Assembly: GCA_027382625.1 (NCBI GenBank)
Contig: JAJKFJ010021608.1
Location: 1-64,000, forward strand
Length of the DNA stretch: 64,000 nt
Source: Tetmemena sp. SeJ-2015
Lineage: Eukaryota; Ciliophora; Spirotrichea; Sporadotrichida; Oxytrichidae
Reading direction: 5' to 3'
A program made the position numbers and the translations under genes. Within the stretch, counting starts at the first letter, position 1, and the number at the start of each line of letters is the position of its first letter. Shown in pieces: positions 39,404 through 58,957 of this stretch. The notes beneath the pieces are model-generated. The model saw nothing but the letters and a program-made list of their open reading frames with translations. It was not told where the DNA came from and ran no database searches.

Positions 39404-39607
39404 TGATATGCTTCATTCAGGACTTTAATTAATTAGTTAAAGACTATATTCAATTATAATCGATCTTTGAATTGTGTATTATTCTCTATATTCATTTGAT
39501 TCAATTCCTTAAGGTAGGCTAGAATCTATCCAAAACTTCATTCACAAATCAAAATATAAGATTAGCATCTCAAAAGCAGAGCAAAAGATAAAAGTTCATG
39601 GAGAAAA

Positions 39608-39696
39608 TCAAGTGTAGAAGATTTGAAGAGTTTTCTTGTACTCCTTGCGGCAGATAGGACACTCTTTGTAGTCTGCGTGTCTCAAGTTGTAGTGAT
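39608..39696 (-). CDS. scrambled RING-finger gene: last MDS (inverted)
   Basis: Read on the minus strand, this segment begins with the pointer ATCACTACAA (39696-39687) and encodes NLRHADYKECPICRKEYKK then TLQIFYT and TGA at 39610-39608. The same 10 bp ends the middle part of the gene at 46234-46243 on the plus strand. Joining them gives VYCKECEDHYNLRHADYKEC followed by PIC, completing the last Cys pair of a C3HC4 RING finger. The segment is about 6.5 kb away and in opposite orientation. Confidence 0.9.
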
Positions 39697-39750
39697 TGCA
39701 TAATTACTTCATTTCGTAAATTTTATTATAGATCTCCTAAAATAAAATTC

Positions 39751-39830
39751 GTAGCACTTGAGAGTGGGTTTACCTGACTGGAGGTCGTAGATCCATCGAT
39801 GACCTTTATTGCATATTTTTTTAATAATTT
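39751..39830 (-). CDS. scrambled RING-finger gene: early MDS (inverted)
   Basis: Minus-strand segment ending in TGCTAC (39756-39751), the pointer that opens the middle part at 45511-45516. Joined, it reads IKVIDGSTTSSQVNPLSSAT then ISHSSVVGVGGNVDQQ in one frame. A start codon in this frame was not found, so an earlier MDS is probably still missing. About 54 bases of AT-rich DNA separate it from the last MDS. Confidence 0.7.
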
Positions 39831-39865
39831 TATATTCAGAATTAATTTAACAGAAGCTAAATAAA

Positions 39866-42800
39866 ATGAAAAAGGCTCCAGAGCTAGCTAGGTAAAATCT
39901 GTATGTTTTCAACATACAGTCCAATCCGTAAAACAAGAGACTTACCAAGAATGACTCTCTAGGAAGCTCATTTCAAGATCCTTTGATGAACGTTCAAGTT
40001 AGGCAAACTAGCACCACTTTCAAAAAACCAATAAAAGCAAGAAAACAGAGGAAGTAATTCAAGAAGGAGGATTCTCTGATATCTCAAAAAGAAGGTTATG
40101 ATGTTAAATTAATATCATGATTTGAATTCTGATATTTATGATACTGATTAGTAAGAATAACAGTACTTGAATGAGTCTATTCTTTAATATGGGATTGAAC
40201 TTCCTTCTGGGTTTGCTTAAGGAAGAAGAAAGTCTAGATTCTAGCTTGGAGGAGTATCTAATGCAGTGGAGCACTTAGATTTAGTAAGGGTAAGAAAATC
40301 AGTTGAGGAGGAAGCTCAGTAGCTTGTGGTGGATCATTTGAAACGGCAAGGTTTATCTCAAAGAGGGCAGAGAAATGATGATATAGTCAAGTAAGTATAG
40401 ATTTTTCAACAAACATTTTCACATTATTTAAGATGAAGTTATTTACTCTAAATCTAGTGAGTTGAAGGAGAAAGTGAAAAGAGTCAAAGAGAAATACGAA
40501 ATCAGATTAGCGATACAGCTCCAAGATGCAAAGACCTAGTTTGATGTATTCTAATTCAGCTACTTAAACTTTTGTAGGTTAAAATGAAAGAGAAAGAAAA
40601 AATGTTGATGAATCAGTTTAATGCAGAGCTTGATCTACTAAAACTGCAGCACGATAAGCAAATTACTATAATTAGAGCTAAGGAGAAGACGATAAGGCGA
40701 CTTGTAGGCATATTAATAAAACAGGAGAGTGAGATTGAAAAGGAATTCAAGATGTATGAAAGGCTGAGAACCAATTTTAACAAAAACAATCAGCTTAACC
40801 AGCTTATCAATCAATCTTTGTTTTAGATCTATGAAGAATGGAACATTAGAGTAAAGTGATACAGGCTATGGGGCAAAGGAATTAGAGGATATCGTGGACA
40901 GAATTGGAATGGAGGTGGAAGAGCTTCATGAACGAGATGAGCACTACTAGCGAGAGATGGAGAGTATGAGCAAGCTGTCAAAGGACTGCATTAAGAATGC
41001 AGATCATTATAGATTGATGTGCGAAGAGGCCTAAAAGTCAGAAAATGCAGCCATTCAAAGACTAGAAGAGTTCAAGTAAAACTTAATTGATTAAGTACCA
41101 ATAATTAGGTACATTTAATAATTATAGCAAGAGTATAATAGGTAGATTGAGATGAGAGCCAATAACGAAAGGGAAAGAGAAAACCTAAAACTCATGGCAG
41201 AAAACATGAAGCAAGATCTCAGTCAGGAAATTAATTTATTATGATAAATGATGCTGAAGGAGGTCATAATCAAGCAACAATAGGAGTAGATTGAAGCTTA
41301 CAAATAGCAAATGAGATAGGCAATAAACATCATGAATGTATTAATTATAATAGTTTTAGAAAGTGCCAAGATTAATGGATTAGGCTTCTAAAAGACTCAA
41401 TTACAACAAAGTTGAATACATAAAGCGCCAACCTAGAGATTATCATAATTATTTTAAGATACTTTGAGAATTCCTAAAGTAATTCCCCTGATAAAACTAA
41501 CAAGAATCTCTCAGAAGCCATTGGGAAATAGTATATTTAATTTTATGAATAAGATGGCTCACTGACATTTTCGAATGCTCACTTATAAAATCTGCTTGTA
41601 AAAAGCAATAACAAGCAATAAAACTCTTAAACGAGAAATAGCAATGAGTTCAACAGCATTAGCATTGACTAAGATAACAATTCTAGCATGTGGTTGAACA
41701 ATAAATTCCCATAAGATTTGGAGTCTGTGGAGGTTGAACTTTTGAAAAGACCTTAGACTTCCATTAATTTTAATAGAAACTAAAATACAGCAAACAATTT
41801 ATCAACAAATGAAGAGTTAAAAATAATTTAAAACTAGAACTCGGAGCAATAAAGAGTAACGCAAATGCTTTCTCGTACTCTCAAAAACTCTGGAAGAAAT
41901 TAATTACCTGTTTTAATTTTTGAATAAGAAATAGATTTGAGATATTGAAGGGAAAGCATAATGCTTTTAATGAGATGAGAAGAAGCTCGATGAATGATGG
42001 AAATACAGGCTTGGATTAGAAAAACATGAGCCATCTTTCATTAGAGTCCTTTAATATCTTTAAGTCACAGTAGTCTTCTTCTCAACCTGGGTCTTTGATT
42101 AGAATAAATGATAAGCACAGTAAAATAATTTCAAGCCTGATCTAAAGCCGAAGGAAAGTATCAAAATAGTTGGAAAATTAGCTGGGAAGAACCAGAAACG
42201 TAGATATCAATCAAAAGAACTTAGTAAACACAAATATCTTCATTCAGGAAGACTAGACCCTAGAAAACAAGAAATGGGATCAAATTTTAAAGTTAAATTT
42301 TAATGTAAATCAACCTCAAAAGTTAGATCAAAATTTTATGATACCTCAAGCCAAAAGTAGAGGAAGATAACCCAGACATCATAGTATAATATTTTATTAG
42401 AATTTCATTATAGATACAACACTACGCAGGACATTAGAGTCTATCAATCCAATTTATAAGATTCTATCAACAAATTAAATCTGGAATAAGCAAATCTAAA
42501 ATAAGCTGCTCAAGAGGAATAGAACTCATAGTTAGAAATGAGAGATGTTCAGATCGAGTCAAAGGAAATCCTGGACTAGTATAATGTTGACATAGGAAAT
42601 TAAAGTAACAATCATTCTGCTCTTTTAATTCAACAAAAAGACTCTCCCTAATTCGACTGGTTATAACAGGTTAATAGAATGGGTATGAATGCAATTAAGT
42701 TTAAACCACAAAGTTTAATTTATCATTAATTAATTTTGCAATACTAAAGAGATAGCCTTAAAAATGGAGATACTATAATAGAGGGCTAAAGTAATTCCCT

Positions 42801-43023
42801 TTATCAATTCTAAATAAACTGCTTCAACATGAAACTTAATAGCAGACTAAGGAAGAACATGCAATAGAATGGCCTTAAATTTAAGCTATAAACTCAGAAA
42901 CTATAAGCTTTTGAACCAAGAAGAAGTAGTTTAGGGAGCAGTTTAAAGGTATCTAATAGAAATTTTGAGAGATAGTTTTTGCTATCCACTCAAGAATTCA
43001 AATCGTCTAACGATAAACCTTGA
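39866..43023 (+). CDS. coiled-coil protein
   Basis: ATG 39866 (MKKAPELARQNLYVFNIQSN) to TGA 43021. Removing IESs at 40377, 40814 and 41228 and a 32 nt intron at 40546 gives a continuous helical region: ELKEKVKRVKEKYEIRLAIQ, EKEKMLMNQFNAELDLLKLQ, ELEDIVDRIGMEVEELHERD, KEVIIKQQQEQIEAYKQQMR. The rest is polar, Asn/Gln/Ser-rich sequence with some unresolved frame changes, ending STQEFKSSNDKP. It is probably a structural or cytoskeletal coiled coil; no named family. It converges on the CHHC gene with one base between the two stop codons and sits inside the scrambled RING locus. Confidence 0.8.
40377..40431 (+). other. IES, pointer GATGA (55 bp)
   Basis: GATGA at 40377-40381 and 40432-40436; excision gives RGQRNDEVIYSKSSELKE. 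Confidence 0.85.
40546..40577 (+). other. 32 nt intron
   Basis: GTATTC...TTGTAG; splicing gives TQFDVKMKEKEKMLM. It has canonical GT-AG ends and no pointer longer than GT. Confidence 0.7.
40814..40826 (+). other. 13 bp IES, pointer ATCT
   Basis: ATCT at 40814-40817 and 40827-40830; excision gives LINQSMKNGTLEQSDTGYG. Confidence 0.75.
41228..41245 (+). other. 18 bp IES, pointer AAAT
   Basis: AAAT at 41228-41231 and 41246-41249; excision removes an in-frame TGA and gives DLSQEMMLKEVIIKQQQ. Confidence 0.8.
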
Positions 43024-43024
43024 A

Positions 43025-45341
43025 TCAGGAATAATTTCCTAGATTATTTAAATCTTTTCTACTATATAATTTCGATATTGAATTCCTAATATCTTGACAA
43101 TTTTTTCTAGCAGCTTCTTTGAGAAGAGACTCAGTTTTCTCTAGCCTTTCCTTGAGTTGAGCATACTCTGCGTCCTTTTGCTTGAGTTGCTTGTTGGCTT
43201 GGTTGAGAATTTCTTTGCACCTAGCGATCTCAAGTTCTTTCTCATTTACCTTGGACGAAAGCTAGTCTTGCTTTTAGGTTAGGGTGTTGAACTTGGTGGT
43301 GATGATCTTTAGTTGAAGCTCTCCTTGCTCTCTCTGCTTCTCAATATCCTTGCACTTGTTCTCACTAACTAAGTACATTTACACTATTTAGAAAAGAACT
43401 GCATAGTTTTCCTCAGATTCTTTGAGTTTAGCTTTAATTCTCCTTACTTCTTGGTCCAAATAAAGCCTATGCATTTCAAATGAAAATGAGATATTTAAAG
43501 AGGAGTAGTTTAGTTAATCTTGCCTTTCTGTTCTCTGATGGTTCTATCTCTGTCGTACAAGTTAACATTCTATTTAAAAGTTCTTATCAGTGTCCTCAAG
43601 CAGTCTTGTCCTTTCTTCCAAGTGAGACTTGAGATCTAGATTTACTCTCTGCATCTCTTGGCAAGCTCTCTTCAATCCTGACTCGTCTAGATCTGTCATG
43701 TCAAGAACAGGCAAACTCAAATTGCTTGCTGAGCTTGCTGTTCCATTTCTGGGCATCGTAGAAACAAAAGGCATCATATTTTCATAAAGAAATTATAAAG
43801 GTGAGTCAGAAGTGCTCTCCCTCTCATTTGAAGGCAGAGACAACTTTTCCTTTGCCATGATGATTGAGAAGTCATACTCATCTCCCAAGTAGTTGCAGAG
43901 CTTAGGAGTATGGCGGGAAAGCAAAAACAGAACAACATGAGTTTACTCCTTTTCCTCTTAGGTGAGTCCATACATGTGATCACCCAACACATTGTTCATT
44001 CCAATCAATTAAAGATGTTATAACTCTTTAATTTATCACAGGAGCTGCACTGGTTTCTTCATCAGGATTCAGAACTCTTGATCTGAGTTGGTCCAGCATT
44101 TGCAAACTGAACTGCTTCGAGAATTTTTCATCCTCTTCTTCAAAGATCTTCAACTTGAAAATTGTATTCTCTTAGATGTATTCCTGAGTTAACTATGTAT
44201 TTCATAAATCAAAAAATTAATAGTTCTCTCCAAATCTTCCAGATCCAAGCCAGCAATCTTCAAGAATTAGTCGACAGTGATATACTCCTGAATGTTAAAC
44301 TCAAACAAGTTGCTAAATCAATGATTAAGATTGCGAAAAATTATAACTAATTTCCTTCAATATGAGTGACTTACTTCAAAAAAGTTTTTCTGTTGGCTAT
44401 AGAGAGCGCAAAAATCTCCTCGTCATCCTACTTTATGAGCATCTTAGTTATGTCCTCATTTGCACTTCGAGTGACATTTTCCCAGAGTTCTTCAGTTTGC
44501 TGTTTCATCTCTTCCTCGCTTCGAGGTTTCTCCTCTTCTGGGTTCATGTTTGGGTTTTCGAAAGTCTTGTACATCTTGAACTTGAACTACAATTGAATGA
44601 AGATATCATTGGTATAATTTGACAATATTAAATAAAGAACTGCTCGTGAGAGCTCTGAATTTGAGCAGCAGTTCCGCCAATGAATGGCTCGTTCATGCAG
44701 TACTTGTAGGTGAGATGAGGCATGCTTTGAGAGTCTGGGGTGTTGGTTGACAAGCCAAGCTCAACCTGCTGCTAGTTCTTAGCTTTCTTCACAATAAATA
44801 ACAACTCTTCTACTGTACTACTTGTGAAATCCAGCTTTTGTTTCTGCTGAATATCTGATGCGTCTTTTGAGCTTGAACCTCAAAGCTGGTTCTATCAGGG
44901 CAAACTTCCTCATGGTTTTCCCTCTCAACTACTGACTTGAAGAGGTGGTTCACGTTGTACTTGCAGTAAGCACAAAAAGGAGTGCGCATCTCAGCCTGCT
45001 CCTAGATTCTGGCTAAGTCTTCTTTGAGGTTGGGATCCAGCAGACTTTGCTAGTTGTCAGCAACTCCAGCTTCTAACTTTGGCTTGAGTTCACAGCTATA
45101 TGCTCATGATAATTAGCAGAAGAACTTACGTTTGCTCATGGACAACTAGCTTCAAAGGGTTTATGAAAATGTGCATGGAGTTGTATTGGCACTTGTACAC
45201 AATTTTACCTCTGCGATCTCCGCACCTTCCAATGTGAAATGAGAGCTTTCTATTGTCAGGCAATTTGTGATAAGCGTTGAAGGGGCATATGAAATCAGCC
45301 TTAGGAGCTGGAGGGTTCATTGAGGATGCAGCAGTACTCAT
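43025..45341 (-). CDS. triple CHHC zinc-finger (GTSF1/U11-48K type) coiled-coil protein
   Basis: ATG 45341 (MSTAASSMNPPAPKADFICP). Three zinc fingers share the spacing C-x5-H-x10-H-x3-C: residues 19-40 (C19, H25, H36, C40), 51-72 (C51, H57, H68, C72) and a third near residue 110 (CKYNVNHLFK then H-EEV-C). The last Cys of finger 2 is created by splicing a 34 nt intron. CHHC fingers of this kind bind RNA in GTSF1/Asterix (Piwi cofactors) and U11-48K (minor spliceosome), usually with nine residues between the His. A long region follows (EEIFALSIANRKTFL, EYITVDQFLKIAGLDLEDLE), then a coiled coil (QEQGELQLKI-type, KEILNQANKQLKQKDAEYAQ) to TGA 43027. At least five IESs and two introns were resolved. 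The domain pairing is unusual; a role with small RNAs is only a suggestion. Confidence 0.85.
43559..43577 (-). other. IES, pointer AACTT (19 bp)
   Basis: On the minus strand AACTT flanks both sides (plus-strand AAGTT at 43559-43563 and 43578-43582); excision gives DTDKNLYDRDRTIREQKG. Confidence 0.85.
44004..44034 (-). other. IES, pointer TGAT (31 bp)
   Basis: Plus-strand ATCA at 44004-44007 and 44035-44038; excision gives SAAPVIGMNNVLGDHMYG. Confidence 0.85.
44163..44176 (-). other. 14 bp IES, pointer AATACA
   Basis: Plus-strand TGTATT at 44163-44168 and 44177-44182; excision gives IHSQLRNTIFKLKIFEEED. Confidence 0.75.
44313..44374 (-). other. 62 nt intron
   Basis: Minus strand GTAAGT...GATTTAG; splicing gives IANRKTFLNNLFEFNIQEY. 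Confidence 0.75.
44584..44636 (-). other. IES, pointer AGTTC (53 bp)
   Basis: Plus-strand GAACT at 44584-44588 and 44637-44641; excision gives QSSHEQFKFKMYKTFENPN. Confidence 0.85.
44870..44883 (-). other. 14 bp IES, pointer AGCT
   Basis: AGCT at 44870-44873 and 44884-44887; excision gives VCPDRTSSKDASDIQQKQK. Confidence 0.8.
45096..45129 (-). other. 34 nt intron
   Basis: Minus strand GTAAGT...ATATAG; splicing gives VVHEQTCELKPKLEAG and supplies the final zinc ligand of finger 2. Confidence 0.85.
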
Positions 45342-45510
45342 TCTATCTCAAAAGAAATCTGCAAAATTATTCAATGAATAGAGGTTTTTGAGGTTGCAAC
45401 AATAATAAGTATCTACTTACCAAAATAAATTAGAAAACTTGAAATCAATTAATTATAATTCTTGATCTGTAAATAATCTTGAAAGGGAAATTATTAGTTA
45501 TTCTTGAAGC

Positions 45511-46243
45511 TGCTACAATATCTCATTCTTCAGTAGTTGGAGTTGGAGGGAATGTTGATCAACAAGGCTTAACAAAGCTTATTCTTGATGCTTTGACAAC
45601 TACTCAACTCTAAATTCCAAACTCTTCTTCAGATTATCCTTTATAATGAGTATTAAATTTAAAATGAATAGATCAAAGACAGGCCTCTTCTGCAAGCAAA
45701 GACTAGGCTGAGCATGTTTCAGATTCTGAAATGGAAGATGATGGAGAGATTTTAGGAGATGAGATTGACATGAGAAAAGTGCAGCAGAACAAACTACAGC
45801 AAAAGGCTAAGCAACTTATTTCAGCAAACTCACTTGAAACTCAACCAAGCAAGAAAGAAGAGACTAGTGGAGGTATCCATCAAAGAAAGATGTGGGAGCT
45901 CTTGCCAGTAAGTATGCCAACCTCTTTGAGAAAAGTACCATCAAGGTCATCTATATTTACTTTAATCGATCACGTTTTCTTATTACAATTTCTCAAGTGC
46001 TACTCCAAGTTTCGGAGCCTTAGCTCAACAACAGATCTTTGGGTTAGACGCTCAACCTTCGAACCTAGATTCTCAAGTAGCACAAAAGCCCTAGCTTACT
46101 GGAGTAGCTCCATCTACTATTTCAGGGGCTGAAACCATTCCAGACGATATGCTGTGCGTGAGCTGCATGGACAAGAGAAAAGAAGTGATGATAATGTCTT
46201 GCAAGCACTTGGTGTACTGCAAAGAATGCGAGGATCACTACAA
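45511..46243 (+). CDS. scrambled RING-finger gene: middle MDSs
   Basis: Bounded by pointers TGCTAC (45511-45516) and ATCACTACAA (46234-46243), whose partners lie inverted at 39751 and 39687. With three conventional IESs removed the frame reads LTKLILDALTTTQLQIPNSS, EMEDDGEILGDEIDMRKVQQ, GALASKYANLFEKSATPSFG, then the RING core CVSCMDKRKEVMIMSCKHLV and YCKEC. The final CPIC comes from the inverted MDS. RING fingers of this C3HC4 type are usually C-terminal in ubiquitin ligases that recruit an E2 enzyme. The N-terminus remains incomplete. Confidence 0.9.
45631..45669 (+). other. IES, pointer AGAT (39 bp)
   Basis: AGAT at 45631-45634 and 45670-45673; excision removes two in-frame TGA codons and gives IPNSSSDQRQASSASKDQ. 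Confidence 0.85.
45869..45894 (+). other. IES, pointer GGAG (26 bp)
   Basis: GGAG at 45869-45872 and 45895-45898; excision gives KEETSGALASKYANLFEK. Confidence 0.8.
45933..45994 (+). other. IES, pointer AAGT (62 bp)
   Basis: AAGT at 45933-45936 and 45995-45998; excision gives NLFEKSATPSFGALAQQQ. Confidence 0.85.
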
Positions 46244-46391
46244 AATAACAATTCTATATACAATTTTAAACCTTGAATGAGACTGATTCCTCTCTCAATA
46301 AATTACTTTCTTAAAATAATTGGCTTTAATTCTTGCTAGGCTTCTGAATTTTATTGCTCTATTTTAATTATAAGTTACCATTTCTTCTATA

Positions 46392-49300
46392 ATGAGTCAT
46401 GCATACATTTATCTTATTTTATAATGCTGTTGATACTGGCTAGAACAAAAAACCATCTCTTAAAAAAGTGTCTAATAAAATAAACCCGCTTAAAGAAATG
46501 AAAGAATCCCTTAATTTCAGCCCAACATCTAAAGATCAGTTGTCCTATCCAGTTTCACCCTCTTATGGGAGTCCCTTAAACAGGATCACTCAAGAGAGTG
46601 TAGGTCGCTAAAATGCTGACAGTGCTACTAGATCCAAACCTAATTTGACTACTGAGAGAATTAATTCTGAATCATAAGCAAAGCCAAGGAGCAACCACAG
46701 TCTAGTCAAAAAGTTTGTTCTCATTAAAAGAAAAACCAAAAATGAGAGACAGTCGGTAAGAATGTTTGAGCCCTTCGCTTAAATAATGTATTATATTGTA
46801 ATAAATGATTTGTGATGTGCTTGGTTAAAATTGTTGAATAAACTGCTATTTTAAGTTTTAAAGGGCTAATTTCTTGTTTATAGATGTTTGTAGATGTAGA
46901 GTAAATGAAAAAGCTGAAGGAGATCAGAAGAGAGAAGATATCTAATTTCATTTAGGAGTATGAACAGTCTAAAGTCGTGAAACTCTAAACGCAAGACATA
47001 ATTGACGGCATTCACAGAAAACAAAGAGACTAGACTGAGTTAGAAGTCAATATGCGTAATTTTATTATTGTATAAATATTGTGACATCTCGGATTCTGCT
47101 GAAGAAGGATCAATACGCAGAGTACAAGCGAGACGTGAAGCTAAAAATGCTGAAGGATGAGATGCGAAGAAGAGAGGACGCAATCATCAAGAAGTATCAG
47201 ACAGATTAGTACGAGTAACTAATAAGCGACAAAGAGAAAGAGTATTTAGACGAAATTCGATACAAGATAGAGGATGAATAGCAAAATGAAGATAACAAAT
47301 ACTCTGAGTAGTCACTTGAATTGCAACTCAAAAAGGCTGGATAGGAGCCCAAAAGCGATATCCTCGATCTGGCTATAAGATAAGGAATTAAGATTCGATT
47401 AGACAGTAAAACTTCTAAAAAACAGGTATCTTTAAATAAAAGTCAATATAGATTACTATTAAAGATAGCGAGTACATTGTTGGTGTTTGCAATATTTTTC
47501 TTTTAAATAACGATAGCTATGCTTATCTAAACTATAAGAGGAAAAACTTTCTTCGTAAAAAGGACAAAGAACAAAAAGAGATAGTAGAGCGTGTAGAGAG
47601 ACATATCAACATGAAAAAGGAGGAGAATACCAGGAAGTTCAGATCACAAATGCAAAGGAGAAATGCTCTTCAGTCGAATTTAGCAACCAATAGAACTAAA
47701 TAAAGCCACCCAATTAATTTGAGTCCTAATCCTTTCTAATCATTCAGCTCAAGTAGGGAGCTCAGCTAAAAGCAATAAAATGAAGAGAACAGAGACAAAT
47801 AAGCAAGTCACTTAAGCGGCTTCATTCTATTAGAAGATACTTTAAAAATAAAGGCAGTTTATTTTTAAGATGAAGTTAGGCAGCAAGACTAAGAGGTGGA
47901 AGATGTTATTTTTAAATCAAGTTTCAATAAGAAATCTCAAATTCAGTTGGAAGAAGTTACTTAAAATTTCTCACAAGAATAGAATTCTGAAATTGTGGAA
48001 GAGGATGAATCTCCCCAAGCAAAGAGGCTAAATGCTATTGGCAGGTAGCAAGTCCTTAGCTCTTAAGGAGTTAAGCCAACATAGTTCAGAATCAACATAT
48101 AGAGGCCAATGACTAATTTTACCTCTGGCATTAATAGACAGAGACAAGCAAATTAAGATATGAGTTTTACTTTAATTACCAAGGAGTATTTTCAAACTCG
48201 AACTTAAACAATAGGCAATTGAACCAGTCTCAAAATGACACCAAGACTTAGAGTTTTGGTGTTATGATGTCTGGTTTGAGATAATCAGCAGAGTTAAATG
48301 ATAAAACTACTTTGGCAAGTACAAAGTAAAATCTAATTCAATCCACTATTCAAAATCAGCAGACTCCTTCTAACATCACTTACTCCTGTTTAAGGGCAGT
48401 ATCTTAGTAGAAGCACAGAGTCAATAACTTCTCACAGTAATCCTTCAATATAGAGAAAATGGTAAGACCGAAGACTAAGATCCATTCCAGGCCCTTGAAT
48501 TAGAACTTAAGCTTTTTAGAGCTAGCGAAATTCAATCAAGTAAATCAGAACTCAGACTATGCAGCCACTCCACTCATTGATAAGACTAAATAGTTCTCAA
48601 GTTTAACTGGTTTTATTTTTAAGCTTCATCTACGGAAATACTGTATAGCAATTGGCTGAAGTGCATGCGAGACCTAAAACTCGTGATAACTCTTCGAATT
48701 CGACACAGTTTGGAAGGTTTAGAAAGCAAATGCTTGATCGGATTAGAAACAAGGAAAATATTTAGAAATCTTTGTTAGAGTAAAAGGAGGCGTTTAATCT
48801 ATAGGCAAGTCCTGGGGTATTTCTTGATAGACCTTTTACTTAAGCGAGGACAACGAGAAACAAGGATTCAAATTATAATAAAAAGAATTCTCAAGCTTTG
48901 TTTAAAATGATTAAGCAGCAATCTTTGGTAACTTTTTATTGTTAGATGAGAGAAACTCCAAGTAAAGCCCAATTGGATATTCAACAAGACTAAAAATGCA
49001 ATAGCAAAGCCAATAAGCTAACCTCCCTCGCTTTACTTAATCACAGATCCTTTTAGGTGCTTCTCACTTTAATTTAGATTATAATTGCTTATTCTTCTCC
49101 CAAAGAGAGAAATGATTATAGCACTTAATAGTAATAATATTCGAGTGGGAGCATTTCACTTTAGAAGCGAATGAAGAGTTAGCTTTAAGATCTTAGGCGA
49201 AATTGCAACTCAGTTTTATAGAAGCAGCGACTTGACACAGAAAGAATAAACGATGTGTATAATGATCTGAAAGAGATACAAAATTAAACTGGGTTTAGAT

Positions 49301-50226
49301 AAAACAAGAACCTTAATGCAAGCTTTCGAAAGCATAATAAGGCGGAGTAAGAGCTGTAGTCCTTTGATAACTAGAATAAGATGATGATGAGTGACGTTTC
49401 ACAAGAGTTCGACACTATGCTGGTGTCTCCTACTTAGTAAATGTTTTCAAAGTCCATTCGTAAATATCCTTAAGTGTTGGAAATGATGCCTTCATCGAAT
49501 CCTAGCGCAAAATATGAGCAACTTATTACCATATTTATTGGAGATATATTTGAACTTGTGAAGCAGGAGGACTTAAGATCAAAGAGATTCTAGGAAGCGG
49601 AGAATCAGCTAGCAGGTATAGATCTCTTAGATGCTCTGAGGCCCAATACAATGACCAGTATGCTCAACTACAAGTTATTGGATAATTTGTTTGTTCATTG
49701 AATCTTGAAGTTTGAAGAGCTGACTGACGTAAAACTGGATGGAGTAGTAATTGAGGGAGAATACAGATAGGGAATAAATGACCCGAGCAGAGTAGCAGCT
49801 TAGTGGGAGAGAGCCAAAGGAATCAAGAAAATAGTTGGAAGGAAAGCCATCATAGATGAATATGTCAAGAGAGTCCAAAACATGAAGAACAACAACTTCA
49901 ATTTATCATAAAAATGTTAAATTAGAAAAATATAATTTGATAGGAGCTACTATCGAAAATAGAGAATGAATTATCACCTTATAGATTTCTTAAATAAACA
50001 ATAAACTTAAAGATAGTTCAATTAATTCACAAATGATTTAAAATTCTTTATCGAAGCATATTCAGCTATCAAAGATTTAAATCAATCTTTTCAATTTATT
50101 ATCTGCATTTCAAATTAAAAAGAATCTTAATAATTATTAACATAATATAAGTTAGGACTCATTAGTTTTGGTGTGTGTGTTTAATTTTTTTATCTTTATT
50201 TTTAATAATTTTTTTAATGGAATTGA
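46392..50226 (+). CDS. large charged, Q-rich protein
   Basis: ATG 46392 gives, after a 25 bp IES, MSHAVDTGQNKKPSLKKVSN. Charged helical stretches follow (KKLKEIRREKISNFIQEYEQ, KLKMLKDEMRRREDAIIKKY, KEYLDEIRYKIEDEQQ), then long Ser/Asn/Gln-rich sequence and a more ordered end (KYEQLITIFIGDIFELVKQE, KLDGVVIEGEYRQGINDPS). Frame changes near 47050, 47410, 48230 and 48620 mark unresolved IESs or introns. The frame stays open to TGA 50224, but AT content rises sharply after about 49910, so the true end may be earlier. No family is recognised. Confidence 0.65.
46399..46423 (+). other. IES, pointer ATGC (25 bp)
   Basis: ATGC at 46399-46402 and 46424-46427; excision joins the start codon to the main frame (MSHAVDTGQNKK). 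Confidence 0.75.
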
Positions 50227-50349
50227 AGTCCCATCGATACCGTTCTAAACAGGAGTCAGTTGTTTTAGAATTATCTCTAATTCAATTTAGGCCAAGACTT
50301 TATCTTCATAGAAGTTTTATCTTCAAATAACTTCCAATTTTGCTAGGCC

Positions 50350-52245
50350 ATGGACTAGATTAAGCATCTTCTAATAAAGACAGAAGTTGTGGATGCGTTC
50401 TCAAATCCTTCACAAAGACTCTAATCAAATCATGCAGATGCACTTTTAACTCGCTTTCCAAAGAAGAACTTTCAATAAGATTTCGACAAAGGGTTGACAA
50501 TTAGACATCATAAGCCACTTATCAAAGACTGCTTTCAGGACATTAAAGAAAGAATTAAAGATCTTGAAGCCAAGAGCTCCAGGAGAAATCCAAAACTATA
50601 ACCCACTAATGCTTACGGCTTCAACACTGAGTCTTTAATAAGTGTTTAATCTTATTTATGAAGGATCATAGGAAGACAATAAGAGAAAAGATCTCATTAT
50701 AACTCCAAGCTAAGCCTACAACAATACACAGAAACTTAAACCAATATCCTCAAGACAGAAGACAAAGCATGGCAGATGCTTCCATTTACAGAAATAGGAC
50801 TTTTGAAAATAATCACTACTCATAAAAGCAAGGTAATCATTACAGATAGAGATCCTCATTCGATGAGTATGAGGAAGACCTTGCAATGTGCAAGAGCAAG
50901 ACCAATATCAACCCAGATTCTAAAGTGATTTAGCTCTCTCAGTCAATCGATGGCAGACTTAGAGAACATAGAAATAGTAGCCAGTTATCAAAGAAAAGCA
51001 GACGTCATTTATAAATTGTGAACTTAATAAAACATACATTATAATCATGAGGAAGTATCTAGCTCGTAGCAGAGACGATAGATAGAGTGGGAAAAAGCCA
51101 TGAAGCAGATGGAGTTACCTGAAATAATAGACAGTTCAAGATAGAATCTGTAGCTATTTCATGAGTACCATGAGAGCGTTATGAAAAAGAGCCACTTAAC
51201 CGAATTGAAGTAGTTTCTATCTCAAAGAAGAATTTAAAGGCAGTAGACGATAGTCAAAAGACTCGAATCTAACAGAGAACGTTACTAGAGAAGTAGCTCT
51301 AAAAATAAGGTTTAAGATTTTCTATCTCAGTCCTAATCAATTTTGGCCAATGAGCTTGATAACTCATAACTATAGATAAGACCTCATGAAAAATCTTCGT
51401 ACTTTCCTGCTGTATAACTAGAAAGTTCTCGATTTTTAGATTCAAGCAGATAGCTAGAATCAACTGACCAAATTTTTGCTTAGAACAGTCAGAGTTAATT
51501 AAGAGATAGTACATCGCTATCTCCTTTTAGAAATTAACTTGACCAGTCGATTGTAAATCTGAAAATGGCTAGAGGGGCAGGAATGGATTCTTAGCTTTTA
51601 AAAAGCTTAGGTTAAAATGTACCTTCTAAATTTAGGGTTATCTAGAATGACTAAAATATCAGATCAAATGAAAAGCTACAAGTTCTTAATAAATCTAGCA
51701 ATGAAAGCATAGTTGCTAAACTTTTGAATAGGATTAATCGATCAGAACTTAAGAATTCTGTTGTAATTAATTCAAAACTGCAAGAAGAGGTCTACGAATA
51801 GAAATTACCAGTTTAGAATAAGGTGGAGTTATCTCGGAACTTCTCCCTGTTTAATACAAATGGAAGTTTGAAATCTATGAATGTAGAATAACCAAAAGGT
51901 ATAGCTTAATAAAAAAAATATGATTTAATAGGTAATTCAAAGTAAGAATTGACGATGAGTTAATAGGAAGGGTTCTTTTTAACTAACATAAATGAAGCCA
52001 CAATAGAGACTGATAGAAAACTTCTCAATTAAACAAAAGAGGAGAAGAAATTAGAGAGCAATAGAAAATAAAACAAAATAGATATCCATAGTTCAAATTT
52101 TCAGTTACAGAAACCCTCTTCTAAAGATTTAAAGACAAATAAAGCCAGTAATTTTGAACCCTATAATGACCAAAGCAAATAGTTACCTTCATTACATCGA
52201 AAATATTTCTCTAATTATAATTAAAATTTAATTAACAATAAGTGA
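50350..52245 (+). CDS. hypothetical Q/S-rich protein
   Basis: ATG 50350 (MDQIKHLLIKTEVVDAFSNP) to TGA 52243. The first 100 residues look ordered (FPKKNFQQDFDKGLTIRHHK). The middle needs frame changes near 50650 and 50750 and contains SFDEYEEDLAMCKSKTNINP. A resolved IES at 51009 leads into IEWEKAMKQMELPEIIDSSR and ELKQFLSQRRIQRQQTIVKR; the tail is Ser/Asn/Gln-rich. No domain recognised. Confidence 0.65.
51009..51038 (+). other. IES, pointer TTATAA (30 bp)
   Basis: TTATAA at 51009-51014 and 51039-51044; excision removes an in-frame TGA and gives ADVIYNHEEVSSSQQ. Confidence 0.85.
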
Positions 52246-52302
52246 TTGGTATGAAAAATATTTTCCATTACTATACGTTCAGCCCAGATTTTTCAAAAAA
52301 TT

Positions 52303-52700
52303 TCAGTTTGCTTCTGTAAAGCCTTGGCGATCGAGGACGAATCTCTTGTCATCTGTGGTTAAAACTTGGTACTGTAAGCGATTCTTGTAGGTCGAGTATT
52401 GCTAAAAAAATTTGGAAAAAAATGTAATTTTACAGATTTATTAAATCCCACAATTATAGGGAACGTTCTCAATAAACATGCGTATCATGAATAGTTTTTA
52501 AGCCATTCTCTAAAGTTCAGTAAAAATACTAAAAAAAAAGTGGCTGCTTACTAGAAAAGATGGCTTCCTAGCCAGTAGTCAAAAGTCGGGGCTGAAAGGA
52601 TAATACCATTGTATACTTTTAGTTTCGCAGTCGCACTTCTATGTATAAGCTTATGAATTGATGTCTGTAAACATTCAGAAATCTACTGTTCTAGATGAAG
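52303..52700 (-). CDS. small hypothetical protein, interrupted
   Basis: On the minus strand, MFTDINSQAYTQKCDCETKS then IQWYYPFSPDF runs to a TGA near 52590. A frame downstream of it reads IFTELQRMAQKLFMIRMFIE, NVPYNCGIQ, then STYKNRLQYQVLTTDDKRFV and LDRQGFTEAN with TGA at 52305-52303. One or more unresolved IESs presumably join these. The T-rich stretches near 52400 and 52530 may be eliminated. Function unknown; it could be part of a scrambled gene. Confidence 0.45.
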
Positions 52701-52921
52701 ATAAAATGATAAAAATGGTAGACTTCCTTTTTCTTTCACAACTCTTTGGCTCACTATTACATCTTAACTTAAAACTTATCATACAAAACTCTATAAGTTT
52801 TCACGACAAAAAATTATATCTAGAGAGAGATTGATTGGTACAAACTTTTTAATTTAATAGAATAAATTAGTCCAAAATAAGGTAATAATTTGAACTATTA
52901 AGCTTATAAATGATATCAATC

Positions 52922-53248
52922 TTATTCATAATAGTACAACAGAATCGAAAAATCCCCAATTGTGATAGAGAATAATCCTTCGCCTGCTATTACTTTAAAT
53001 TTATAAAGTTGAGAGTTTATTTCTTTAATTATTTCTACTATATTGTAAAGAAAGAGAGAGATAAATTTAATTTCCGAGAGAATCTTAATATTTAGAATAA
53101 TCCCATAATAAAGATATAACCGCAGATTACAAACTACTTTTATTGTTTCGCTATTTATTAATTTAATATTTTTTAACTCCTCTTCTATTGCTCCAGTTAT
53201 ACAAAACATTAATTTGAAACAGACTGATTTGAATGATTTAATGAGCAC
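52922..53248 (-). CDS. AT-rich open frame, doubtful
   Basis: A 108-codon frame with hydrophobic Ile/Leu/Tyr/Phe-rich composition lies immediately upstream of, and slightly overlapping, the start of the plus-strand gene at 53241. Its composition is like AT-rich spacer DNA and no domain is visible. It may be chance. Confidence 0.2.
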   Translation of the reverse strand: MLIKSFKSVCFKLMFCITGAIEEELKNIKLINSETIKVVCNLRLYLYYGIILNIKILSEIKFISLFLYNIVEIIKEINSQLYKFKVIAGEGLFSITIGDFSILLYYYE

Positions 53249-53987
53249 CTCCTCTTAATCAGGGACACCCGATAATTCAAGCTCCCAACATTTTAAAGTT
53301 GCCAGTTTCTAAAATAACTAAGCGCCTCAGCCCCAACGAAGTCCTTAGATAATTTCTAGTATTCAAAAAAACTTGAAGAAGACAACCAGAGCCAGGCATT
53401 AACTCAATCATAGCATGTAAAAAATAAATGACACAGTCGCAAAGTAGATAGAACAAAATAATTTTGAGTTAAGAAGAATTGTGCAGAATAGGACCACGCA
53501 AAGAATGACTTTGGAGATTACTAAGATACTGCGGAAAGGATCTATTCTTAAAGGAAGAGGCAATGGAGTAACTAAGATGCAAGCAAGTTAGGCAAGTGAT
53601 GAGAGTTCTATCGATTACGAATAGTCACCTATTAGCAAGAAGTCTAGGGGAAATAGAAGCCTCAAATCTCCTCTTAAGTCTCCACTTAAATCTCCTTTGA
53701 AGTTCAATCAATACATATTAAATATTATGCATTATTTATATCATGCAGAAGATGATTTTACTAATTATATTGACGATTTGCACAGTGGAAAATCCTAAAA
53801 CTTCTCTCCTAAATTGAAGCAAGACCCTGGCTAAGAATTTAGAAACAGTGTTATGAAGGCTAGGCTATAAGGAGGAGTTCTAACAACAACTTCGAAATAG
53901 TATAAGTAAGTTGATAAAGTCAAGAGACCAACTCACACTGAGATGCAATTAGATAAGTCTTACTCAATATAAGTGGGGCTTTTGTGA
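53241..53987 (+). CDS. basic Ser/Pro-rich protein with KSPL repeats
   Basis: A 249-codon frame with no internal TGA, from ATG 53241 (MSTSSQSGTPDNSSSQHFK) to TGA 53985; TAA/TAG encode Gln throughout. It contains RRIVQNRTTQRMTLEITKIL and three tandem copies of KSPL (LKSPLKSPLKSPLKF), possible proline-directed phosphorylation sites. The segment QYILNIMHYLYH is AT-rich and might be a short in-frame IES. It is mostly disordered and basic; function unknown. Confidence 0.65.
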
Positions 53988-54107
53988 ATAACCATAGCTT
54001 TGAATTTTTTCTTCATTTGTCTTAAATGTAAATTATAATTAAAGAGGAGAAGGTATGTTTGTATTAATATTTTAGATATAAAGAATTAATTATATCTTGG
54101 AAGTAAA

Positions 54108-57100
54108 ATGCTTTAAGGAGTGATTGGAAAGATAAAAATTGGGAGTATTTTTGTGATGGACCCAACCTTCAAGCCTCAAAAAGAGAGGCCGGAGGAGGAA
54201 GAGTATACCGATGCTAAGATAATGTATTTCCATCCGATATCTACAGATATACACGAGAAACGTAAGCAAGTAGGAATAAGTGAGGGAATAGTTTCCTTCT
54301 TCTTGCCATTCGTACAATATAATGAAGCATATTTTTATTCACTGATAATCAAGAGGCAGTGGAGTGCATTTCCACTTTGAACTTTACTCATGTCATGAAG
54401 CAGGTAGAGACAGACATCTGGCTCAATATAGTCATAACTCATCCAGAAACACTATACGGTCCTAGACAAGACCCGAAGGAAGAGGCAGAAACTATTGCCA
54501 ATAACAAATTCTAAGTCAGTCTCTTCAGAGAAGAGGACTCTAAGATATTCCACAAGTTGCTAGATGTTTATCATAACTAACCTTAAAACTTTTCTGCTGT
54601 TTAAATTTAATTGCTTATGATGGTATACTTCAGATTGTTTCACGGCAATTTTAGAGATCTGTGGAATTAAAATTAGAGGAACTTTGAATCAATTTTAGAG
54701 GACTTTACTAAGAACTTTGAGTATCACTTCTTCAGTAAAGAATTCGAGAAGAATTTTTAAAAGTATAATGATGGATAGAGTTAAATTGAATTTCTTTTGG
54801 AATATCTGCTTCTAAGGATTATTCTATTGCCCCATAGAGAAGAGACAGTTCCTTTAAACTCGTTTATGTAATTATAATATAAAGTAACATTTGAACTCAG
54901 TTACTAGTGAATTCTATGCTGACAGAGTTTGAGGAGTTGTAGCATGCATTAGTCTTCCACGAAGAGTTTTACATATCAAGCACACTCCCTCACTCAGACA
55001 TTTAGACTCTATACTCCTATATCGTAGGATGTGGAGACGCAAGTAGAGAAAAAAAAAGGACTAAAATCTTCACCTACAAAGAATTCGGTAACTCTTATAG
55101 AATAACTCCCAACAATACCAAAAATAAAATGGAATAGATTGAAGAGAGCAAGGGAGAAGAATTCTTCCAAAACGTTAATCATAATGACTTATAGTATAGG
55201 ATCAATTGCGATTAGGGATTATTCTTAATAAATAGATTTTTAAATCGTGACAGGCGACTTTGAAATGGAGTCCCATTCGGTCGCGTATCCACAAAGCGAA
55301 GGTTCAAGGAATTTGACCCGACTCATTCCTCCTCCCTTGCCTTCCCTGCTCACCGCCATCACATAGCTGACATGAACGTGATACCTCTGCTGTAGAGCCG
55401 GCTGCCTCAGCCTAAGACCAAACCTTTACATCATTCCAGGTCTGTAAAGCTGAGGATACGATAATCAATCACCTACAAACATCAGCTCTCCGCCATCTTT
55501 GTACGCTTTGGATCCCTTCACTCAGATGAAAATCCCCGCCTCACCTACCCTCAAGCTACAAACATACTAGGTTTGTATGTAGGAGCAGTCAACAGTATTG
55601 TTTAGCGCTGGCGCAAGGGTGGCGGTGGTGAACAAATCTAAGAGGGGCAGTAAGCGGTTACTCTCTCCCGAAAGTGAGCGCCGCATCACCTAAATCAAGG
55701 CGCTGCATGAGACAGCTCACCTGAGCATTGCTTAGCGTTGTCACTTTCTCCATCATCGCTACAACATCCCGCTCCTCTCTACCTTCTCTCTAAGAAAGAT
55801 TTACATCTGCAACGGGGTCCGATACAGAGCAGCAGGCTAATCATATCGCCGCAAGGAGGACATGGAGCAAGAGGCGCATGGGAAGCAGCAAGAATTCTCA
55901 AAGCCGCTCGCGTGGTGGGTTTTGGAGGGCCGACACATAGTGTATCTCGATGAGTCAACATTCAACGCCAGGCAGTCACCTAAGCGGATATGGCTGACGA
56001 AGTGGAAGAAGGTCCGAATTCCTATTACGTGCGGGAAGTCACTCACTGTAATCGGTGCCATTAGCGAGGCAAGCGGCCTCCTCCACAGCAAGATTCTCGT
56101 CGGCAGCAACAACCTCCACCACTTCCTCGCCTACCTCTCGGAGCTGGGGCCCGGCCTAAAGCCAGGTACTATCATACTCACGGACAACCTCTCCATTCAC
56201 AAGTGCTCGAAGGTACTCGACGCCATTCCAGCCTCCTGCTAACTTGAGTACTTTCCTCCCTACAGCTGCATCCTCAACCCTATCGAGCGCCTGTGGACGT
56301 TGCTCAAGCAAGACTGGCGCCGTCTCACCGTCACGCAGCTGGAGCAGGCCAACTAGCCATCCCCACCCGAGCACATACTAAACAATGCAATTTAGAGTAT
56401 TAACATTTAATAAGTTAAAGCTATCACAAGCTCACACTACCGTACACTCATCTCGTCCAGCGATGCCACTCAGTCTGAATCATTGTTGCTTGTTCTTGAT
56501 CGGGGTTCTCTGCTTGCTATCTTGCGAGTTCACTTGCTGTTGATCTATCTGGTATTTTGATCTTGGCAAGAGCTCTCTCTCTTCCATGCTCACCTTCTCT
56601 CGCTAGATATGCTTCTATATTCTGTGTTTACTGTCCTTCAGCTGCCTCATTCTCAGAGTTGCCTTACCCTTGCTATCAAACCTGAGCCGAAGCGTTTTTC
56701 CTGATTTCTGCGAAGACGTCAAGCCTTCTAAGAAGGAAGGCGGTATCTAGACATTCCGATACAAATTAGCTTTAGTGTATAAGCCTGGGGCTACGTAACC
56801 TTTCTGGAGAATATCTTCCTTAGGAGAGAATGTGGATAGTAATGATAAAATCCATTTCTTATATAGAAGATGAGATTTATCAACATGAGATTCTTGCCCA
56901 TTCTATCAGCCATCGCTTGCAACTTTTAAACCAAGACCTCCATAGTGGGAGGTGAAGGGCTAGGAAGTAATCGGATTTCTCTGAATCGAGGACACCAGGC
57001 AGTTCCATTTTTGACACTCATGATATAATCCTCAGTCACCAACTTGGATTTGAATGAGGGAAGGAAGAACTAATTCCTCAATGCAGCATCGTACATATCA

Positions 57101-57974
57101 TGCTTAGACTTGATGAACTTCGAGAGTAAGCCTAGAGAGGACTTGGAGTCCGCCATTGGAGTATGTGATATAAATTATAAGGGAGAATGAGACTTGCATT
57201 TAAGTTATACTGCTTCCGCAATTTAAAATGATCCTATACTATTAGAAGGAGCAGATGACGCACTAGGAATATCTAACTTCGGAAAGATCAATCAGAAAGT
57301 TAAAAGTATTACTCTAATAAATTTATGCTTTAAGTACTAGAAAAGGAATACAATATTAATGCGACTCAGTTTTTGATTGGGCCGATGTATCCTGTTCACT
57401 CTGAGTAAAAATTCTGCGACGTGTTTTCACCAACAGTCTACCTCAAAAATACTGATGGAGATTTAGAGCCTTACAAACTCTTTGTGTACTAAGGATAGAA
57501 GACTTTGATATGTTTGCTGTTCAAGAATGACCAAGTATTCACTTATGAGTTTTTGGATTCGTTGAACAAGTATCTCGGGCTCCACGTTCCTGTGGTTTCA
57601 TAACAGCTCTTAATTTATTAAAGCTTGACTAGCTGATTTAGAAAGTACTTCAAAAAGAGGACCCTCTAAGATTTGTATACTTCAACTAAATGAACCTTGC
57701 TCTGAAATTTAGCAACCTTATAACTAAGGAGATGTTCACTCCTGAGCTAATTTTAACAATAAACTAGATGCACGAGTCATTTCTATTTATGATATTTGAA
57801 ACAGACCCAGATTGCATGGAGTAGCATATGAATAATCAGTTGTTTTGGCTGGTGGGAATAAGCTCAGCGGGCAGAGAGATTTATCTGATCTTCCCTCCAA
57901 ACTATTCAAGCTCGAAGGTAGACGTAGAAAAGAGAAAGATTGTGGCCTCCTATTTCCAAAACTTATTCATCTGA
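54108..57974 (+). CDS. CCZ1: CCZ1 homologue, split by transposon and nested gene
   Basis: ATG 54108 to TGA 57972. The N-terminal longin-type region reads GSIFVMDPTFKPQKERPEEE, DAKIMYFHPISTDIHEKRKQ and VGISEGIVSFFLPF, then after a 29 bp IES ECISTLNFTHVMKQVETDIW. The C-terminal half (57330-57974) has FLIGPMYPVHSEQKFCDVF, RFVYFNQMNLALKFSNLITK, NNQLFWLVGISSAGREIYLI and ends SYFQNLFI. These match CCZ1, partner of MON1 in the complex that activates Rab7 on late endosomes and vacuoles. The two halves are separated by about 2 kb with a transposon and an opposite-strand gene. Pointers for that large gap were not identified, and the middle (57200-57330) is uncertain. Confidence 0.8.
54327..54355 (+). 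other. IES, pointer GCA (29 bp)
   Basis: GCA at 54327-54329 and 54356-54358; excision gives FVQYNEAVECISTLNFTHV. Confidence 0.7.
55250..56440 (+). mobile_element. GC-rich Tc1/IS630-type transposon
   Basis: About 1.2 kb of distinctly GC-rich DNA inside the CCZ1 locus contains a nearly complete DDE transposase. I could not find terminal inverted repeats or a TA duplication, so the borders are estimated from base composition. Confidence 0.75.
55440..56400 (+). CDS. Tc1/IS630-type DDE transposase
   Basis: The N-terminal part (LTYPQATNILGLYVGAVNSI, QRWRKGGGG) fits a helix-turn-helix DNA-binding domain. After a frame change near 55640 come LLSPESERRITQIKALHETA and KIYICNGVRYRAAG, then the catalytic core: first Asp in HIVYLDESTFNARQ (55938), second in IILTDNLSIHKC (56175), and Glu in LNPIERLWTLLKQDWRRL (56275) after LEYFPPYSC. 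TAA and TAG codons fall at Gln positions (for example ASCQLEYF), so it evolved under the ciliate code despite its high GC. All three catalytic residues are present. One frameshift may inactivate it. Confidence 0.8.
56480..57156 (-). CDS. hypothetical basic protein nested in CCZ1
   Basis: Minus-strand ATG 57156 (MADSKSSLGLLSKFIKSKHD) to TGA 56482-56480. It reads ALRNQFFLPSFKSKLVTEDY, SVKNGTAWCPRFREIRLLPS, then a frame change near 56860 (unresolved IES), YVAPGLYTKANLYRNVQIPP, KTLRLRFDSKGKATLRMRQL and a basic Gln-rich end. About 200 residues. Base composition resembles host genes, not the adjacent GC-rich transposon. It could be a host gene lying in eliminated DNA of CCZ1, or a passenger frame of an element (TBE elements carry a frame of similar size); I cannot decide. 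Confidence 0.65.
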
Positions 57975-58109
57975 GGAAAAGAAGTGCAAGCCATAAATTG
58001 ATTGACTTTAACTTATTATCGCAGTAGTTAAATTTGTGAAGAGTTTTAAAATTAAGCATGAATTATCTAAGGTTATAATATAAATAAGTGATAATTATAA
58101 GAATCAAAC

Positions 58110-58957
58110 ATGCCACCTAAGCAGTTAAAGGGCCCTATCCCAGGCTAGAAAGAGCAGGCAGTCACCCTCAAAGTATTCGGAAATTACTTCGTTCCTGAAA
58201 TGCTTAAAATTAATTGATAATTATCCTTAATACTAAATGCGTACAGTATGCGCTCTGCTGGAGTTGAATGAGATAAGCTACAACTGCGAGACAATCGACA
58301 TCTTCACGAAAGAGGGAAGAGAAGAATACTAAGGATTTAACCCTAGCTAAATGATGCCCACCCTAATTGAGGGCTTTCAAACCATCCTAGCTGACCCACC
58401 TCACCTGTATAAATACATCTGTCGCACCAAGCAAGTGGATGAAAAGTTTTACCCCACTAAGGATATGAATCGTGATAAGAGAAAGCTGATCGACCAGTAC
58501 TTAGAATATATCCAGTGGATGGTGAAGCGCAACACCGATCGCATGGCAAAGCTAAAGATTGAGAAGATACTCCTAGAGAAGAATCTAATTGACAGAGAGG
58601 AAACAGCTTACACCGAGGCAGAGGAGTAGAAAGAAAAGGAGATCTTCTTTAGCATAATCGTCCCCAACTTGGAGCAGCACCTAGATGGAGGAAAGATTTA
58701 CCTGTGTGGATATGACTTTTCAATAGCAGATATTGCCTTCTTTAATGAGCTCATAAACGCAATCGAAGTAATAGAGCAGAATATTGACCCTAAGAAGTTC
58801 AAAAATTGTCAAAAGTTACAATGTAATTATATTTTGATATGAGTTCCCAAATATTGATAAATGGATGAAGAGAATAGAAGATATTGGACCTATCAGAGTT
58901 AATACAATCAAGTTTTAAGACGAGTTGAAGAAACTCTTTGAGAAGATCAGAGGCTGA
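58110..58957 (+). CDS. glutathione S-transferase
   Basis: ATG 58110 to TGA 58955. Removing two IESs (37 and 46 bp) leaves 765 bases, 254 residues plus stop, in one frame. The N-terminal thioredoxin-like domain reads LKVFGNYFVPEMRTVCALLE, EISYNCETIDIF, FNPSQMMPTLIEG (the conserved cis-Pro before TLI). The helical C-terminal domain has LIDQYLEYIQWMVKRNTDRM and YLCGYDFSIADIAFFNELI, the latter matching the conserved N-capping/hydrophobic staple region. GSTs conjugate glutathione to electrophiles. The fold resembles theta-type enzymes; the class is a guess. Confidence 0.88.
58198..58234 (+). other. IES, pointer AAATGC (37 bp)
   Basis: AAATGC at 58198-58203 and 58235-58240; excision gives FVPEMRTVCALLELNE. 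Confidence 0.9.
58796..58841 (+). other. IES, pointer AGTTC (46 bp)
   Basis: AGTTC at 58796-58800 and 58842-58846; excision gives NIDPKKFPNIDKWMKRIED. Confidence 0.9.

Follow-up and report, generated by a model that had tools for sequence, protein, structure and literature searches.

How can a single protein with zinc fingers and a RING finger be encoded by pieces of DNA that lie on both strands and on both sides of another gene? The question is raised by a locus in the ciliate Tetmemena sp. SeJ-2015, contig JAJKFJ010021608.1, of which positions 1 to 64,000 of the forward strand, referred to here as the window, have been analysed and translated with code 6, in which TGA is the sole stop. The DNA of the window is micronuclear (germline) and comes from a ciliate of spirotrich/hypotrich type. 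The locus is very probably the germline precursor of a single somatic zinc-finger/RING gene of 888 codons, made up of about 13 macronuclear-destined segments (MDSs), with a tail in odd/even order arranged around another gene. The first-pass annotation of this DNA had proposed a scrambled, partly inverted RING gene with an odd/even order, and this proposal has been upheld and strengthened. Observed here are the anatomy of the DNA, the reading frame and the homolog relations; from the germline sequence, the homologs, a paralog and a second haplotype we infer all of the joins, and with them the rearrangement.

The germline order from left to right is -13, -11, the enclosed gene (+), -8 to -1, 9, 10 and 12. 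MDSs 8 to 1 are in order on the minus strand and the tail is split, with MDSs 9, 10 and 12 on the plus strand just beyond this block and an inverted cluster of MDSs 13 and 11 located 3.3-3.5 kb past its other end; the enclosed gene is situated inside this gap. Ordinary internal eliminated sequences (IESs) separate neighbouring segments, and the pointers given below with a segment are those of its join to the preceding one unless stated otherwise. In the predicted somatic order the features are:

MDS 1, 44884..45341, minus strand: from the ATG at 45341, with CHHC fingers 1-3 and an intron at 45129-45096; the true 5' limit lies upstream of 45341
MDS 2, 44637..44873, minus strand: pointer AGCT to MDS 1; the intervening 14-bp IES is placed by frame and a small repeat only
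IES between MDS 2 and MDS 3, 44589..44636: pointer AGTTC; length and sequence very unlike those of the second haplotype
MDS 3, 44222..44588, minus strand: contains an intron at 44374-44313
MDS 4, 44037..44190, minus strand: pointer AACT
MDS 5, 43578..43991, minus strand: pointer TGTG
MDS 6, 43496..43563, minus strand: pointer AACTT; the preceding 19-bp IES is placed by frame and a small repeat
MDS 7, 43397..43465, minus strand: pointer CTTTA; coiled coil
MDS 8, 43108..43370, minus strand: pointer AGTT; coiled coil; terminates in the scrambled pointer GAAGCTGCTA at 43117-43108
MDS 9, 45506..45634, plus strand: begins with GAAGCTGCTA at 45506-45515
MDS 10, 45670..45951, plus strand: pointer AGAT, with an ordinary IES ahead (39 bp removed); ends in AAGGTCATC at 45943-45951
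MDS 11, inverted, 39751..39806, minus strand: from AAGGTCATC at 39806-39798 to TCTCAAGTGCTAC at 39763-39751
MDS 12, 45991..46243, plus strand: from TCTCAAGTGCTAC at 45991-46003 to ATCACTACAA at 46234-46243; first part of the RING
MDS 13, inverted, 39594..39696, minus strand: ATCACTACAA at 39696-39687; end of the RING and stop TGA at 39610-39608; 39594 is the cut of the reading and not a true 3' limit
Enclosed gene, 39866..43023, plus strand: a chain of ordered open frames, followed by eye and unassembled, from the ATG at 39866 to the TGA that ends at 43023

When the segments are joined in this order with a single copy of each pointer retained, the frame is open from the ATG at 45341 to the TGA at 39610-39608 across four scrambled joins, the removal of eight ordinary IESs (pointers AGCT, AGTTC, AACT, TGTG, AACTT, CTTTA, AGTT and AGAT) and two introns, comprising 888 codons with the letters of the second haplotype taken at one base. 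The frame that enters 45511 has no ATG after the preceding stop, and the middle piece lacks a start, as the first-pass annotation had stated. A start codon directly 5' of 45506 was also considered and rejected: no ATG occurs in that frame, and up to 45503 the two haplotypes diverge, their differences including an indel.

Each scrambled join is bounded at both of its ends by a short repeat, of 10, 9, 13 and 10 bp. The 10-bp word ATCACTACAA (12/13 join) has exactly two copies in the window, one at 46234-46243 (+) and the other at 39687-39696 (-), precisely where it had first been reported, and joining there completes a C3HC4 RING finger (...CKECED/HYNLRHADYKECPICRKEYKKTLQIFYT followed by the stop) that matches Pfam PF13920 with 47.5 bits against a cut-off of 27. 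The 13-bp TCTCAAGTGCTAC (11/12 join) is found at 45991-46003 and inverted at 39763-39751, the 9-bp AAGGTCATC (10/11 join) at 45943-45951 and inverted at 39806-39798, and the 10-bp GAAGCTGCTA (8/9 join) at 43117-43108 (-) and 45506-45515 (+). Because of its 9-bp and 13-bp pointer partners, MDS 11 has been placed between the pieces 45670-45951 and 45991-46243, where it replaces a 39-bp stretch between MDS 10 and MDS 12 and adds in frame ...TIKV/IDGSTTSSQVNPLSSAT/PSFG.... Read from left to right, the scrambled pointers form the word abcddcba, a return word as defined in PMC5940158.

The first-pass annotation had drawn the tail differently, with the inverted piece at 39751-39830 as an early part attached ahead of 45511 by TGCTAC, followed by the middle and the inverted end, and with two complete convergent genes enclosed. 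TGCTAC does occur at both 45511 and 39751. It was rejected as a pointer, as random 30-bp windows, compared in pairs with one member inverted, have words of at least 6 bp in common in 3931 of 19925 cases, about one fifth, and the piece beginning at 39751 has the better 9-bp and 13-bp partners elsewhere. This piece ends at 39806 and not at 39830, being bounded by AAGGTCATC and TCTCAAGTGCTAC, and it is the eleventh of about 13 segments, between MDSs 10 and 12. What precedes 45506 is supplied by the piece that ends at 43108, and P0002, a homolog described below, spans the 8/9 join. The minus-strand region 45341-43108, taken before as one of the enclosed genes, amounts to two-thirds of the RING gene, at its 5' end, leaving one plus-strand gene enclosed; the domains of the supposed enclosed gene occupy a single locus together with the RING in the paralog. 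An attachment through TGCTAC around two complete genes has next to no probability on these grounds.

The single-gene reading depends on the homologs. A protein search with the joined tail identified two among 580 candidates, namely P0001 (141 aa, RING end) and P0002 (325 aa). P0002 is colinear with residues 494-888 of the predicted protein across the 8/9 and 12/13 joins, with 35% identity and 197 bits. Against the unjoined assembly P0002 has six matches. One of them, at 43109-43465 (-) of the window, corresponds to P0002 residues 28-136, and its RING matches both 46131-46247 (+) and 39611-39700 (-); the other three are in the second-haplotype contig C4550, in the paralog contig C3412 and, as a weak RING match, in C3504. 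Since P0002 has matches both within the minus-strand region 45341-43108 and in the RING pieces, this region is taken as the first part of the RING gene.

The paralog in C3412 extends this to the N-terminal part. Along one strand, descending between 15949 and 12337, it aligns with residues 17-141, 178-281, 290-412 and 829-887 in order, at 30-44% identity; one weak out-of-order row (residues 321-354, E 0.80) has been omitted from this map as chance, as have the weak C3504 rows besides the RING. The paralogous locus (16021-12337 (-)) has three fingers with the spacing of those in the scrambled gene, the third after a TGA, and a RING. It also has an intron at the same position as the intron 45129-45096 of the scrambled gene, the removal of which completes finger 2 (HEQT/C). 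A second copy in C4531 (11483-12920 (+)) carries residues 16-413 in the same order, and a C4531 RING is not among the P0002 matches. The unscrambled order is therefore independent of the pointers, as the matches of C3412 and C4531 run in order. Alternatively, the RING tail and the 5' part on the minus strand could belong to two genes, linked by coincidence or by trans-splicing. The two-gene view has no direct support beyond the weak shared-word statistic of the 8/9 join given below; the coiled coil and the RING belong to one protein in P0002, and the fingers and the RING of C3412 lie in order on one strand, so that we attach scarcely any probability to it.

A second haplotype offers an assessment of the inferred segments and IESs. 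Contig C4550 (13,736 bp) aligns in two blocks, 97.7% and 98.8% identical, to positions 44370-58155 of the window and shows the same head-to-head arrangement over 44370-46243. It spans MDSs 1, 2, 9, 10, 12 and part of 3, with the 58 bp at 45342-45399 left unclassed. In the parts thus covered the IESs vary more than the MDSs: one indel base, that of the frame break discussed below, falls in 1545 bp of inferred coding MDS, as against 33 in 385 bp of inferred IESs and flanks (25 of these 33 in one IES). The substitutions contrast less, with 23 per 1545 bp and 11 per 385 bp respectively.

How rare are pointers of this length? Among the 19925 random pairs a common word of at least 9 bp was found in 86, of at least 10 bp in 24 and of at least 13 bp in none; the four real 30-bp windows were centred on already known pointers, and these figures thus express rarity and are no blind test. 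Several observations weigh against the single scrambled gene. Comparison of 45450-46300 with the inverted 39590-39840 gives six common words 9 bp or longer, just three of them pointers, while the others measure 9, 9 and 12 bp; shuffled sequences have a mean of 1.37 such words, reach six in 6 of 2000 cases and have at least three words of at least 10 bp in 15 of 2000. Common words alone are modest evidence for the joins. When 45450-45560 is shuffled, a word of at least 10 bp in common with 43000-45449 turns up in 402 of 1000 cases; by word statistics the 8/9 pointer is unremarkable, and the argument for the proposed 8/9 join is carried by the homolog and the paralog. The 10/11 and 11/12 joins of MDS 11 depend on pointers and frame only, as no homolog found covers them. 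Some IES borders, chiefly those of the 14-bp and 19-bp IESs, were set by frame and small repeats and could shift. No homolog was obtained in a search with the full protein (8000 candidates scored, with a length filter that excluded P0001 and P0002) or with the first 427 residues (3179 candidates). The paralog C3412 has no alignment over residues 413-828, and two unexplained TGA codons are present inside its aligned stretches. The joined 8/9 and 12/13 sequences have 0 matches each, with at most one mismatch, in the same genome assembly; their absence is expected of unrearranged germline DNA.

Two further points of this kind concern the integrity of the locus. In the letters of the window a one-base frame break is present near 45878 in MDS 10, and this base is either a sequencing error or a real allele. 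Together with the existence of a colinear paralog, the break could suggest a decayed, non-functional germline pseudogene, or an intact product made from another locus. The second haplotype is open through the 45878 stretch, indels avoid the coding parts covered by both haplotypes, the frame is otherwise open for 888 codons over 14 joins, and the paralog, being merely 30-44% identical in the aligned stretches, is a different gene; the pseudogene explanation is accordingly considered improbable. The second point is that the inverted cluster at 39.6-39.8 kb is found in one haplotype only within the assembly, the other match being a fragment in contig C3617, and a misjoining of contigs might mimic an inversion. 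The head-to-head part is, however, repeated in C4550, and exact repeats of 9-13 bp that interleave on two sides and coincide with coding boundaries are not what a misassembly would yield. An assembly artefact is very improbable, and the scrambled germline gene is retained as the preferred reading.

How could such a locus be put in order? Because the pointer order abcddcba is palindromic, all four repeat pairs would come together simultaneously if the germline strand folded back on itself once. Inverted recombination at the 9-13-bp pointers would then take place during macronuclear development, excision at the 4-5-bp pointers would remove the ordinary IESs, and a separate product would carry the enclosed gene. 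Oxytricha joins its segments at pointers under the guidance of long and small RNAs (PMC5940158), and by extension from Oxytricha similar RNA guidance may operate at the RING locus. The word CCCCAAAACCCC is absent from the window. C4A4 telomere repeats are found at 18 places on 3 contigs of the assembly, for which the control is uninformative as the pattern reads the same backwards.

The possibility that an exchanged IES is a decayed copy of an MDS has been considered for two pairs with the pointer bounds as then placed. For the IES 45952-45993 against the core of MDS 11, 213 of 1000 shuffles reach the observed score, and for the IES 39697-39750 against the core of MDS 12, 157 of 1000 do so. 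The tested pairs are no more alike than shuffles, and recent duplication with decay is not visible in them.

The joined product of 888 aa is comprised of three N-terminal CHHC zinc fingers, a coiled coil and a C-terminal C3HC4 RING, which in the whole protein scores 44.7 bits with PF13920. The fingers are three Cx5Hx10Hx3C motifs at residues 19, 51 and 115, a spacing found in 0 of 2000 protein shuffles. Against zf-U11-48K, for which the cut-off is 21.1, finger 1 reaches 12.6 bits in a 142-aa fragment, 18.6 in one of 81 aa and 18.9 in one of 70 aa, and finger 1 of the paralog 19.1; in a Pfam scan of the full protein at E 0.01 the CHHC fingers were not among the matches. The sole match among solved structures up to E 10 is GTSF1 (6x46, E 0.013). 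Like the GTSF1/Asterix and U11-48K proteins, the protein of the RING gene has N-terminal CHHC fingers. It differs from them in having three fingers in place of two and x10 in place of x9 spacing. As described in PMC9539491, the proteins of the GTSF1 family are of small size and carry CPx4Hx9Hx3C fingers as a tandem pair; GTSF1 is under 20 kDa, whereas the RING-gene protein has 888 aa, carries a RING and remains below the zf-U11-48K cut-off, and we do not assign it to the GTSF1 family.

In Paramecium the ubiquitylation of Ptiwi09 is Gtsf1-dependent and recruitment of E3 ligases has been proposed (PMC11724296). A role of the RING-gene protein in a Ptiwi09/Gtsf1 pathway would be speculation by analogy. 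There is a slim chance that a ciliate protein type combining GTSF1-like CHHC fingers with a RING in one chain is defined by this gene together with the paralog, possibly acting as an E3 ligase in small-RNA-guided rearrangement; were this true, the RING gene would be a part of the descrambling machinery that needs its own descrambling before each new somatic nucleus can express it. In the titles and opening lines of the abstracts that a literature search listed, no CHHC/U11-48K-RING fusion of ciliates is described, which does not show that the fusion is undescribed. The predicted pairing of RNA-binding-type CHHC fingers with a RING is a combination worth testing in ciliate development.

Copies of parts of this locus are found elsewhere in the assembly. 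Contig C3617 (5108-5160, L007) carries a 53-bp exact copy of window 39594-39646, the last RING coding piece with 3' flank, within a copy of a multicopy element, and 33 bp away from it a 152-bp exact copy of C2989:96948-97099. In C11, a 98.5% similar copy of the C3617 element, the sequence there is mostly different, with 29 bp at 90% in common with the RING piece. The insert in C3617 looks like filler DNA that may have been captured at a break. A copy of about 100 bp of part of the enclosed gene (window 42703-42807) is present at C2610:13094-13197 (L025) with 97-99% identity; the remainder of that 3.1-kb locus is unmatched in the window. A 12-bp inverted repeat connects the IES between MDSs 13 and 11 (39732-39743 (-)) with the interior of MDS 10 (45749-45760 (+)), a length matched by 58 of 1897 random windows.

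At E 0.01, Pfam yields nothing for three pieces of the enclosed gene or for the left neighbour; across the window, Rfam gives no hit that reaches gathering scores, and ARAGORN, with the bacterial code, gives no tRNA. An open frame of 368 aa is located at 55454-56560 (+) in a G+C-rich island (46-48%). By its motifs it is a candidate DDE transposase of the Tc1/mariner kind.

The locus provides a map for the rearrangement of a scrambled gene that can be read from germline sequence alone, in which pointers, frame, second haplotype and colinear paralog serve to cross-check one another. The scrambled gene and its paralog, which is in order over the parts that align, also constitute a pair within one genome for the study of the origin of scrambling.

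Among known systems the RING gene is to be compared with the odd-even genes of Oxytricha trifallax and Tetmemena (1234 4321; PMC5940158, PMC9797194). Nothing specific to the RING locus was noted in what was seen of PMC5312943 or of PMC4684698, the latter on alternative MDSs. Braun et al. (PMC5940158), who defined the return word, describe the odd-even patterns of Oxytricha as usually repeated or reversed words. Like these genes, the RING gene has odd and even clusters, one of them inverted, and is predicted to keep a single pointer copy per join; unlike them it has only four scrambled pointers and a scrambled tail that follows eight ordered MDSs. Its scrambled pointers of 9-13 bp, against 4-5 bp for the ordinary ones, fit with the longer scrambled pointers reported by Feng et al. 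(PMC9797194), according to whom 13.6% of Tetmemena gene loci require translocation and/or inversion. Scrambled genes are more often reported with a paralog, and the RING gene has one. Feng et al. further predict that an exchanged IES often originates from a copy of its MDS, unlike the two RING-gene pairs tested, whose likeness does not exceed that of shuffles. The locus may be compared with the nested ("Russian doll") loci of Oxytricha in that another gene, here a by-eye chain of frames (39866-43023), lies within one MDS gap, which would correspond to insertion depth 1; MDSs of other chromosomes are found inside 1301 of 15,811 macronuclear (MAC) contigs of that species, and insertion depth 1 in 1,163 of the 15,811 processed (PMC5940158, Table 1). 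The phenomenon is already known in Oxytricha and Tetmemena, and the RING gene is a clean further example of it.

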